From: Agromyces italicus DSM 16388
GTDB taxonomy: Bacteria; Actinomycetota; Actinomycetes; Actinomycetales; Microbacteriaceae
Direction of reading: 5' to 3'
Assembly: GCF_000421545.1 (NCBI RefSeq)
Contig: NZ_ATXF01000006.1
Location: 124,001-188,000 of the forward strand
DNA length: 64,000 nt
Below are positions 56,826-60,151 of this stretch, in pieces (position 1 is the first letter of the stretch; the number at the start of each line of letters is the position of its first letter). The position numbers were made by a program, and so were the translations under genes. Under the pieces are notes generated by a model. It worked only from the letters and a program-made list of their open reading frames with translations, did no database searches and was not told where the DNA came from.

Positions 56826-57000
56826 CCGCCGGATTTCGAGACAGTCGCTACGCTCCCTCCTCAACCCACTCGACCGCCGGGTTTCGAGACAGTCGCTACG
56901 CTCCCTCCTCAACCCACTCGACCACCGGATTTCGAGACAGTCGCTACGCTCCCTCCTCAACCCACTCGACCACCGGATTTCGAGACAGTCGCTGCACGAC
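56826..57000. repeat. 48-bp tandem repeat, four copies
   Basis: A unit starting CCGCCGGATTTCGAGACAGT and ending CCTCAACCCACTCGA repeats at 56826, 56874, 56922 and 56970 (last partial, altered). It lies in the 502-bp gap 56514-57015, which has no gene, and belongs to the TTTCGAGAC / CTCCTCAACC family dispersed in this window. No spacers, so not CRISPR. Confidence 0.92.
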
Positions 57001-57015
57001 CTCCTCAGCCCGCGC

Positions 57016-57666
57016 TCACCCCGCCAGCAGCACCGCCACGAGCGCCCCCGCGAGCATCGATGGCCCGAATGGAATCGACCCCCGCAACGTCACCCGTTTC
57101 AGCGCGAGCGCCACGAGCGAGGCCACGCCCCCGATCACGAACGCGGCGAGCAGGGCGACGAGCCAGGGCGACAGCCCGAACCAGCCGACGAGCAACCCGA
57201 TCACGAGTGCGAGTTTCACGTCGCCCATTCCCATCGACGACGGCGAGATGAGGGCGAGCACGAAGTAGGCGGCGAACATCGCCGCGGCACCGGCGAGCGC
57301 CCAGACGAGCCGCATCCACTCCCCGGCGACCCAGGTCGCCGGGATCAGCAGCACCGCCACCGCGGCGAGCGCCGGGAACACCACCGCGTTCGGCAGCCGC
57401 TTCTCGACGAGGTCGACGATCGAGAGCACGGTCGCGCCCGCGGCGAAGGCGAGCAGGGCCGGCAGCATCCAGTCGGGGCCGAAGCGCAGTCCGAGCAGGC
57501 CGAAGGTCACCGCGGTCGTCACTGCGGCGGCGAGGCGCAGGGCGGTGCGCCGAGGCATCCGCTCGCCAATGATCGAATGCACCGACCATGCGGCCAGCGG
57601 CCACCACCCGAGCGCGAACCCGGCGGCGGCGAGGGCGAGCGCGGTCAGCGGCGCGATCAGGGGCAT
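57016..57666 (-). CDS. Prepilin peptidase (A24 family, CpaA/TadV-like)
   Basis: A 216-residue membrane peptidase with six or more hydrophobic segments. The two catalytic aspartates of A24 enzymes appear in LSIVDLVEKRLPNAVVFPAL (near residue 84) and PSSMGMGDVKLALVIGLLVG (near 147, the GxGD motif). It lacks the N-terminal methylase domain, as in CpaA/TadV. It lies 502 bp upstream of flp on the same strand and probably cleaves the leaders of Flp, TadE and TadG. ATG at 57666 is the best start. Confidence 0.9.
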   Translation of the reverse strand: MPLIAPLTALALAAAGFALGWWPLAAWSVHSIIGERMPRRTALRLAAAVTTAVTFGLLGLRFGPDWMLPALLAFAAGATVLSIVDLVEKRLPNAVVFPALAAVAVLLIPATWVAGEWMRLVWALAGAAAMFAAYFVLALISPSSMGMGDVKLALVIGLLVGWFGLSPWLVALLAAFVIGGVASLVALALKRVTLRGSIPFGPSMLAGALVAVLLAG

Positions 57667-57739: not shown

Positions 57740-58057
57740 TCAGAGCGCCTGACGCAGCTTCGACTCGAACCCTGGCAGGTCGTGCACGACGGTCTCACGA
57801 ATGATCGTGAGGTCGACCGAAGCGTACCCCTGCGCGATTCGGTTTTGGGTCGCCCAGATGACTTTCCAGTCGTCAGCGAAGACGCGGTCTCGAAAGCCAG
57901 AGCTTGTGGCCGCGATGGCCTCGATCGCCGCAGCCAATCTCAGGCTCACCGCATCGGCGATCGTCTCGTCATCGAGGTCGCCGCGCGCCAGATGTCGCTG
58001 AAGCGCGGCCAGGTGGTCGAGCGCGTCACCCACCAGTTCTGCGTCGGTGCGACTCAC
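57740..58057 (-). CDS. HepT-like protein, RX4H motif lost
   Basis: A 105-residue helical protein of the HepT/DUF86 family, toxin partner of MNT. The helix that should carry RX4HxY reads TQNRIAQGYASVDLTIIRE near residue 70: the motif arginine and histidine are both glutamine (Q-NRIA-Q-G-Y), while the tyrosine is kept. Codons CAA and CAG confirm this. The RNase activity of HepT depends on R and H, so this copy is probably not an RNase. GTG at 58057 overlaps the MNT stop (GTGA). Still a full-length, coupled gene. Confidence 0.85.
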   Translation of the reverse strand: MSRTDAELVGDALDHLAALQRHLARGDLDDETIADAVSLRLAAAIEAIAATSSGFRDRVFADDWKVIWATQNRIAQGYASVDLTIIRETVVHDLPGFESKLRQAL

Positions 58058-58542
58058 AAGGGCACCGCTTCGCTCAGCACCTGGTCTGCGACATTCGATC
58101 GTAGCGAGCGGGCCGGCACGACATCGACGTGTGTGCCGAGCAGTTCGGCGAGCTCGACCTCGAGCCGAGCGAGCGAGAACAACCCCGTACCCTCGTCGAG
58201 GTCGACGAGCAGGTCGACATCGGATCGGTCGTCATCGGTACCTCGAGCGACGCTGCCGAACACCCGCACGTTGCGGGCGCCATGATCGCCCGCGATCCGC
58301 ACCACCGACGACCGATTCGCGCCGAGTCGGCGACCGAGTTCCGACCGGCCGTGAAACCGGAGCAGGCGTGAGACCTCAGGCTGACTTCGCCCGATCGCCT
58401 CAGCGATCTCACGCTGCGAGAGCCCCGCCGCGGCGCCCGTGCGCACGGCGCCGACGAGTTGGGCTCGCGATCGACGATGAAGCTCATCGGCGCTCGCCGC
58501 CTCAGCGCGCAGTCGCGCCACAAGCTCAGCCGAGCCATCCAT
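58054..58542 (-). CDS. MNT nucleotidyltransferase antitoxin with HTH
   Basis: A 162-residue protein. The N-terminal helix-turn-helix (about 25-60: LSQREIAEAIGRSQPEVSRL) is fused to a minimal nucleotidyltransferase (about 75-160) with the canonical GSx10DxD motif: GSVARGTDDDRSDVDLLVD. In MNT/HepT systems the MNT enzyme adenylylates HepT at the motif tyrosine to silence it. ATG at 58542 lies immediately beside the palindrome GCAAGT-N6-ACTTGC, suggesting autoregulation by the fused HTH. The HepT partner overlaps by 4 bp. Confidence 0.9.
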   Translation of the reverse strand: MDGSAELVARLRAEAASADELHRRSRAQLVGAVRTGAAAGLSQREIAEAIGRSQPEVSRLLRFHGRSELGRRLGANRSSVVRIAGDHGARNVRVFGSVARGTDDDRSDVDLLVDLDEGTGLFSLARLEVELAELLGTHVDVVPARSLRSNVADQVLSEAVPL

Positions 58543-58545
58543 ATA

Positions 58546-58563
58546 GCAAGTACTATCACTTGC
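58546..58563. promoter_or_regulatory. GCAAGT-N6-ACTTGC operator at the MNT start
   Basis: An inverted repeat with 6-bp arms, starting 4 bp upstream of the MNT ATG and overlapping A/T-rich TAGTAC/TATATG promoter-like words. The HTH of the MNT protein is the likely binder (inference). Confidence 0.6.
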
Positions 58564-58584: not shown

Positions 58585-58702
58585 AGGTCGGGGTCTCGAG
58601 ACGCTCCGCTCCACGACCGGCGGGACCCGAGCTCCTCGACCCACGGGACCCGAGCTCCTCGACCGACGGGACCCGCCGCTACGCGACCGGCGAGACCCGC
58701 CG
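58585..58702. repeat. 23-24-bp degenerate tandem repeats
   Basis: CGGGACCCGAGCTCCTCGACC-like units start at 58621, 58644, 58667 and 58691 (later copies changed to CCGCTACGCGACC). They follow a GGGTCTCGAGACGCTCCGCT copy of the dispersed family at 58585 and run up to the FNR stop. Confidence 0.8.
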
Positions 58703-60085
58703 CTACGCGACCTCTCCGCGCGAGATGTCGACCATCTCATCGCGGGGCACGACCTTGACCCGCTTGCGGCCTTCGGCGCCGCCCAGCTCCTGCTCGTGCT
58801 CGTCGAGGCGGTGCCAGCCGTCGAGATCGGTCCAGCGGATTTCGCGCGACTCGAGCAACTCGATCACCGACTCCTCCGACGGCGACTCGGGCCGCCACCA
58901 GTTGCCGAGGTCGTTGATGACGTGCTTGATCGTCTCCATCGCGTCCGACTTGGTGTGGCCGATGAGGCCGACCGGGCCGCGCTTGATCCAGCCGGTCGCG
59001 TACACGCCGTACATCTGCCGCGCCTCGCCGGTCTCCTTGTCGCGCGTGAGCACCTGGCCCTCGTGGTTCGGGATGACGCCGAACTTCTTGTCGAACGGGA
59101 TGCCGGGCAGCGGCGACCCGAAGTAGCCGACCGCACGGTAGACCGCCTGGATGGGCAGTTCGCGGATCTCGCCGGTGCCGACGACCCCGCCGGCGCCGTC
59201 GGGGGCGGTGCGTTCCCAGCGGATGCCGCCCACGCGCCCGTTGCCGTCGTCGATGATCTCGAGCGGCTTGGCGAAGAAGTGCAGGTGCAGGCGACGGCTC
59301 GCCTCACCGACTTCGCGCTGGCGCCACTGGTTCAGCACCTTGTCGATGACGAAGACCTGCTTGTTGCCCGACACCGCTGCGCGGGCGGCGTCGTCGTAGT
59401 CGAAGTCCTCGTCGTAGACGATCATGTCGACGTCGCGCAGCTCGCCGAGCTCGCGCAGCTCGAGCGGCGTGAACTTCACCGAAGTCGGGCCGCGACGGCC
59501 GAACACGTGCACGTCGGTCACGGGCGACGCGGAGAGGCCGGCCGCGACGTTCGGGGGGATCTCGGTCGGCATCAGGTCTTCGACATGCTTCGCGAGGATG
59601 CGCGACACATCGAGCGCGACGTTGCCGTTGCCGATGACGGCCACTTCGCGCGCCTCGAGCGGCCACGTGCGCGGGAAGTCGGGGTGCCCGTCGAACCAGC
59701 TCACGAACTCGGCGGCCCCGTACGAGCCCTCGAGATCGATACCGGGGAGGTTGAGCGACGCGTCGCGAACCGCGCCGGTCGCGAAGATCACGGCGTTGTA
59801 GTGCTTCTTGAGGTCGTCGAGCGTGATGTCCTCACCGAAGCGCACGTTGCCGAAGATGCGGATGTCGCCGCGGTCGAGCACCTCGCGGAGGGCCGTGATG
59901 ATGCCCTTGATACGCGGGTGGTCGGGGGCGACGCCGTAGCGGACGAGCCCGTATGGCGCGGGGAGGTGATCGAACAGGTCGATCGACACGTCGAAGTTGC
60001 GCTCGGCCTTCAGCAGGATGTCGGCGGCGTAGATGCCGGCCGGGCCGGCCCCGACGATCGCCAGTCGCAGCTTGTTCCTCGTCAC
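58703..60085 (-). CDS. Ferredoxin/flavodoxin-NADP reductase (FprA-like)
   Basis: A 460-residue FAD enzyme of the adrenodoxin-reductase type. The FAD site is AIVGAGPAGIYAADILL near residue 7, NADPH binding is VAVIGNGNVALDVSRILAKH near 150, and the conserved block YATGWIKRGPVGLIGHTKSD lies near 365. It passes electrons between NADPH and ferredoxin. GTG at 60085 is preceded by GAGGAGAGAT, better than the GTG 4 codons earlier. The same strand carries the polyprenyl synthase upstream, 66 bp away. Confidence 0.93.
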   Translation of the reverse strand: MTRNKLRLAIVGAGPAGIYAADILLKAERNFDVSIDLFDHLPAPYGLVRYGVAPDHPRIKGIITALREVLDRGDIRIFGNVRFGEDITLDDLKKHYNAVIFATGAVRDASLNLPGIDLEGSYGAAEFVSWFDGHPDFPRTWPLEAREVAVIGNGNVALDVSRILAKHVEDLMPTEIPPNVAAGLSASPVTDVHVFGRRGPTSVKFTPLELRELGELRDVDMIVYDEDFDYDDAARAAVSGNKQVFVIDKVLNQWRQREVGEASRRLHLHFFAKPLEIIDDGNGRVGGIRWERTAPDGAGGVVGTGEIRELPIQAVYRAVGYFGSPLPGIPFDKKFGVIPNHEGQVLTRDKETGEARQMYGVYATGWIKRGPVGLIGHTKSDAMETIKHVINDLGNWWRPESPSEESVIELLESREIRWTDLDGWHRLDEHEQELGGAEGRKRVKVVPRDEMVDISRGEVA

Positions 60086-60151
60086 ATCTCTCCTCACTTC
60101 GAACCTTCGAACCTTCGGACCTCGGAGACGGCGTACGCGTCGGCGCCGCCG

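Follow-up and report, generated by a model that had tools for sequence, protein, structure and literature searches.

The closest described counterpart of the locus reported here is the type VII HepT/MntA pair SO_3166/SO_3165 of Shewanella oneidensis. In this pair, either of the single substitutions R97G and H102A abolishes the toxicity of HepT (PMC4621449), MntA transfers AMP to Tyr104 of the RX4HXY motif (PMC7641770), and the promoter is bound and repressed by the MNT protein itself (PMC4621449, PMC7641770). A Legionella HEPN protein behaves differently: as described in PMC11586414, its R98A and H103A variants hardly lose RNase activity and remain toxic, and it uses a Mg2+ site, with Q44 and E47 required. 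In the DUF86 group of HEPN domains the motif is ‘mostly conserved (83%)’, and HEPN domains in fusion with MNT, in which the catalytic residues are typically missing, were proposed in 2013 to be domesticated (PMC3710099).

Here we analysed a stretch of 64,000 nucleotides from Agromyces italicus DSM 16388 (hereafter, the window) that encodes a HepT and an MNT. The pair shares with the Shewanella system the order MNT then HepT, the GSx10DxD site, the acceptor Tyr and the HEPN fold. It differs in that R and H of the motif are both Gln, the MNT carries an N-terminal helix-turn-helix (HTH), the HepT is shorter (105 aa), and an inferred leaderless promoter goes together with a single palindrome, located at the start codon. 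This looks like the lineage-specific disarming of an ordinary system and not like a new system type.

Features of the locus

The window HepT matches the Pfam HepT-like model with 44.1 bits (cutoff, 23.5), and its motif reads Q71-NRIA-Q76-G-Y78, that is, QX4QXY instead of RX4HXY, with only the Tyr retained (Table 1). The initial annotation had given this reading, with the codons CAA and CAG, correctly in both coordinates and residues, and the perfect GSx10DxD site that it described in the MNT is likewise present. Each of the two Gln codons is one base away from a codon for R or H. Both NCBIfam equivalog cutoffs of 60 bits are missed (NF047751, 20.9 bits; NF047752 (MntA), 44.4 bits), and in PADLOC the window MNT is matched by PDC-S09 models and the HepT by no model. 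Because RX4HXY fails in the HepT, we do not file the pair as a functional type VII system.

Table 1 Coordinates of the HepT/MNT pair, its motifs, its upstream elements and its neighbours in the window
Feature	Position	Strand	Remarks
Type IV leader (prepilin) peptidase gene, flanking	57016..57663	-	Pfam Peptidase_A24
hepT (DUF86/HEPN)	57740..58057	-	105 aa, GTG start; predicted five-helix HEPN fold
Y78, retained	57824..57826	-	Codon TAC; counterpart of AMPylated Tyr104 of Shewanella HepT
Q76, replacing motif His	57830..57832	-	Codon CAG; codon reading and alignment
Q71, replacing motif Arg	57845..57847	-	Codon CAA; codon reading and alignment
HTH-MNT (MntA-type adenylyltransferase, N-terminal HTH)	58054..58542	-	162 aa, ATG at 58542; upstream of hepT, 4-bp overlap
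GSx10DxD nucleotidyltransferase site, perfect, GSVARGTDDDRSDVD	58213..58257	-	
Helix-turn-helix, LSQREIAEAIGRSQPEVSRLL	58360..58422	-	About residues 41-61 of MNT; Pfam HTH matches
Putative operator, ATAGTACTTGCTAT	58543..58556	-	Adjoins MNT start codon
Inferred -10 element of leaderless promoter, TAGTAC	58550..58555	-	TAG[CT]AT in relatives
Pyridine nucleotide-disulphide oxidoreductase family gene, flanking	58703..60097	-	Pfam Pyr_redox_2

Several Pfam HTH models match the window MNT weakly, HTH_IclR alone exceeding its cutoff (22.3 versus 22); the HTH of the relatives is GRSQPEVSRLL-like. We group such loci as an HTH-MNT/HepT clade of actinobacteria, defined in the present analysis by an HTH with SQPE[VI], the order MNT then hepT and a palindrome at the MNT start, all of which the window displays. 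A second pair in the same genome, on another contig (L001:1462-2297), combines an HTH_3-type MNT with a HepT that has a canonical RDVLTHRYF motif.

Catalytic motif among homologues

The closest HepT homologues beside an HTH-MNT come from the same genus, are 65–72% identical to the window HepT and read RNRIAHGY. Our locus table, centred on HepT and filled by HepT searches, contains 70 distinct HepTs: 43 beside an HTH-MNT, 26 beside another MNT and 1 without upstream DNA. The Q/Q motif was read in the window protein and in none of the other 69. Next to an HTH-MNT, an intact frame with RX4HXY is the rule (36/43), and Q/Q is again confined to the window (1/43); the suggestion that consistent Q/Q beside HTH-MNT would define a new subfamily therefore fell once homologues were compared, and a single motif loss is no basis for defining subfamilies. 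Among the loci read, no Q/Q subfamily was found in the genus (60 genomes), the family (398 genomes), the order (396 genomes, best 30 matches) or, among the matches listed, genome_contigs, and searches of viral_contigs and plasmids returned no relative of the window HepT. A loss conserved across lineages, by which a domesticated inactive HEPN partner would be recognized, is thus not what a count of one in 70 describes. The HTH that the MNT was said to have gained is indeed there; however, an HTH-MNT partners all 34 HepTs that score above 110 bits and have upstream DNA, intact HepTs included, so it is no gain of the window MNT.

Among the matches listed, Agromyces bracchium and A. luteolus (L015 and L016, at the same genomic site as the window) and Glaciibacter superstes (L017) share the HTH-MNT type and the palindrome, with HepTs of 70–71% identity; they differ in keeping RNRIAHGY and in having TAGTAT at -10. 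HepT/HTH-MNT loci with 60–61% identity to the window HepT also occur in two MAG records titled Bifidobacterium breve (L018 and L019), the contigs of which may be misbinned or mislabelled.

We aligned 37 HTH-clade HepTs, excluding six damaged or Tyr-less members. The only conserved columns that the window HepT breaks are R71 and H76, and this holds at conservation levels of 100%, 97%, 94% and 90% (12, 14, 18 and 22 columns, respectively); other aligned members break 0 to 3 columns at the 90% level. Because R and H are invariant in all 36 of the other aligned proteins, Q/Q does not represent loose variation. Two of the six excluded members, both with broken frames, also lack one of the two residues (R in L048, H in L053). 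For an earlier set of 23, the window showed 2 broken columns among 18 invariant ones in HepT and 0 among 19 in MNT. There is no clear acceleration in the window HepT (0.228 substitutions per site, versus 0.215 for L006 and 0.203 for L017); relative-rate counts across eight comparisons range from 7 versus 10 to 16 versus 7, and pairwise dN/dS is 0.09–0.22 with dS near saturation.

Structure and catalytic precedents

An AF2 model of the window HepT (pLDDT 89.9) has as its best PDB match the Shewanella HepT (6m6u; Z 12.5, rmsd 2.7, 104 residues aligned); the Legionella HEPN follows with Z 8.9. HepT or HEPN entries make up 10 of the top 11 PDB rows (9 by title and 1ylm by PMC3710099), the remaining row, 1wty, having no such label. 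Because the arrangement of helical bundles can by itself give Z scores close to 12.5, assignment of the HEPN fold also draws on the Pfam match and on the run of HepT/HEPN entries in the top rows. Searching PDB sequences with the HepT sequence alone returned nothing useful. A HepT profile searched against PDB sequences matched the Shewanella HepT weakly (E 0.0024) and the Legionella HEPN over positions 60–91 only, and a further query, meant to bridge to the Mg2+ site of the Legionella HEPN, gave no match.

On the Shewanella precedent, both the R97G and H102A mutants and the activity of MntA suggest that the window HepT has been disarmed as a toxin but could still be an AMPylation target. The initial annotation saw here a non-RNase HepT that keeps its Tyr beside an active MNT. 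Tyr78 is kept, the MNT gene is intact and, by analogy, the RNase is probably dead; however, the role that the claim gave to R and H is not universal, and the tolerance of the Legionella HEPN to R98A and H103A, described in PMC11586414, means that Q/Q alone does not prove inactivity.

Putative promoter and operator

A palindrome at the MNT start, searched for with the loose pattern TAGnAnnTnCTA, is present in 37 of the 44 loci examined, namely the window and 36 related loci (L032 has no upstream DNA for this count). Wherever the ATG follows directly, the relatives have TAG[CT]AT, 7 nt and then ATG (22/22, with L018 and L019 near-duplicates), and TGA precedes TAG[CT]AT in all of them except L017. 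This layout fits the extended -10 element TGNTANNNT, TANNNT and the leaderless starts that PMC3898074 describes for many Mycobacterium tuberculosis toxin–antitoxin genes. The T>C change in the window (TAGTAC) is unique among the 23 loci of the same layout. Other members differ at the palindrome centre (for example, TAGCACTTGCTA), so the substitution should affect the -10 element and not the operator. By eye, the -10 element lies in the first half of the palindrome in some clade members and in the second half in others.

Allowing up to one mismatch, ATAGYANNTGCTAT matches its own genome at a single site, at the window operon, and the operator pattern revealed no wider regulon across that genome. 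With a single operator-like site in this genome, the most likely function of the HTH is autoregulation, which the Shewanella MNT also exerts. We found no description of this operator and leaderless layout for HTH-MNT genes of actinobacteria in the titles and passages of the open-access papers surveyed.

Lesions in HepT and MNT

Across the 69 distinct pairs with upstream DNA, inactivating lesions number nine in HepT and none in MNT, with coverage by the model limited to the nucleotidyltransferase domain in most of the 26 MNTs outside the clade. Six of the HepT lesions lie beside an HTH-MNT (6/43): the Q/Q motif of the window, a core deletion (L012), a stop (L038), a stop at the Tyr codon (L045), two stops with R to W (L048), and NRIAD in a shortened frame (L053). 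The other three lie beside other MNTs (3/26): a fragment (L011), H to R (L043) and a stop (L055). Lesions other than that of the window come from single assemblies each, and some may be sequencing errors; the ‘stops’ marked in L190 and L191 proved to be natural C-terminal stops and were excluded. At even odds, nine of nine lesions would fall in HepT with a probability of 0.5^9 = 0.002 (eight of eight without the window, 0.004). The asymmetry is conservative because the loci were fetched through HepT, which is a bias against damaged HepTs. It is expected for a toxin and its antitoxin, as an active HepT forbids the loss of MNT, and from these sequences it suggests that clade HepTs with an intact motif are working toxins.

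The core deletion occurs in another species of the genus at the same site (L012, genome G007; L012:1474-1578): the HTH-MNT is intact and the HepT is a 34-residue frame in which an in-frame loss of the catalytic core has joined roughly the first 11 and roughly the last 23 residues. L041 and L049 show the opposite of the window case: R and H are kept, the acceptor Tyr is lost (Ser and Cys, respectively) and MNT is intact; these HepTs are possibly toxins that are neutralized without AMPylation.

Interpretation of the pair

We conclude that the window pair is probably a degenerate derivative of a HepT/MntA (type VII) system from the actinobacterial HTH-MNT clade, the RNase of its HepT having been disarmed in the Agromyces lineage by R71Q and H76Q while the antitoxin gene stayed intact. 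In intact relatives, the leaderless promoter would yield HTH-MNT first, and this protein likely represses its own promoter through the palindrome that overlaps the -10 element and AMPylates the Tyr of RX4HXY, thereby blocking the RNase. In the window, DNA binding and AMP transfer by MNT would probably persist, the HepT target would, by analogy with Shewanella, probably no longer be toxic, and the promoter has probably weakened, which would reduce expression of the antitoxin. In favour of disarming are the breakage of the catalytic pair alone, the core loss in L012, the lesion asymmetry, the T>C change at -10, the Shewanella mutants, the structural match and RNRIAHGY in the nearest relatives. 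The 83% figure for DUF86 and the 2013 proposal of domesticated HEPN domains (PMC3710099) make this one more HEPN/MNT pair without the catalytic motif. It shares with the inactive HEPN–MNT fusions in that source the loss of the motif and the retention of the nucleotidyltransferase partner; unlike them, its genes are separate and Q/Q is found in one genome only. A literature search on degenerate toxins with a pseudogene theme gave no match in open-access sources.

Plain drift accounts poorly for how little else has changed, as the decay of a pseudogene predicts acceleration and further broken columns unless the loss is recent. Two active-site hits would also be odd for neutral decay: by our own arithmetic, the next invariant column to break would be the other catalytic one in 1 in 11 to 1 in 17 cases. 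The same pattern (2 catalytic columns of 22 lost, Tyr78 and the rest retained, and a low dN/dS without clear acceleration) is what selection would leave if it retained a non-catalytic HepT for AMPylation by its partner HTH-MNT, for example as a co-repressor or an AMP-loaded sensor, which would make the pair regulatory; MNT-fused HEPN domains have been read as domesticated (PMC3710099). We regard such exaptation as unlikely given a motif read in one genome only, the lone operator-like site, the lost -10 base and the complete loss of the HepT core in another species of the genus, and dN/dS, with dS near saturation, mostly reflects the period that preceded the change. A regulatory role may have been retained, conservation being the one positive argument for it; the view in the initial annotation of a regulatory pair in place of a toxin system is not upheld, because the putative operator occurs once in the genome, a -10 base kept in 22/22 relatives is lost and HepT is damaged recurrently beside an intact MNT. 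We would give still less credence to a version in which the dead HepT is a dedicated AMPylated effector of HTH-MNT, with Gln/Gln selected to remove the RNase and keep MNT docking and Tyr78 AMPylation.

The dispensability of the motif residues in the Legionella HEPN (PMC11586414) speaks against disarming and for a HepT whose toxicity persists by way of a different site, for instance a similar Mg2+ site, in a working toxin–antitoxin pair. The near-invariant Glu46 is present in the window HepT, and its match to Legionella E47, needed there together with Q44, is putative. Such residual toxicity is nevertheless very improbable, as the model is nearer to the Shewanella HepT than to the Legionella HEPN, either Shewanella mutation abolishes toxicity (PMC4621449) and R and H are otherwise invariant in undamaged aligned HTH-clade HepTs. 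An assembly or sequencing error at both codons, conceivable for a single assembly, is hardly credible, because the two substitutions are separate and differ in kind, the frame is otherwise clean, and genome completeness is 99.91% with contamination at 0.05%. The points against pure drift and those against a new role all fit a disarming that was recent and selected and left little time for drift. The pair would then be a clean natural case of HEPN/MNT decay that begins with the toxin, and together with its relatives it offers a testable promoter–operator design for HTH-MNT antitoxins. Should the dead HepT prove to be retained, a route from addiction module to regulator would have been caught with the two genes still separate; the dedicated-effector version, if true, would turn a toxin–antitoxin module into an AMP-dependent autoregulatory switch.

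Genomic setting

The genes that flank the pair encode a prepilin peptidase and an oxidoreductase that is probably a ferredoxin–NADP reductase. Their orthologues lie on one contig in 58 of 60 genomes of the genus, 22 bases to 6.8 kb apart, and five of these 58 (that of the window, G007, G011, G053 and G057) carry a HepT/MNT pair between them. In the other 53, a search for remnants of the pair (tblastn, E 0.05) found none. G038 carries its pair away from this site, and G013, with the reductase that scores highest against that of the window, has a cupin gene there instead (L183:363-692). With the cupin gene in G013 and gaps of up to 6.8 kb in other species, the interval is a small variable spot. 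Two tandem arrays flank the stretch of prepilin peptidase and HepT/MNT genes, one on each side: 3.8 copies of 48 bp at 56829-57011, overlapping no recognized gene, and 4.5 copies of 23 bp at 58606-58712.
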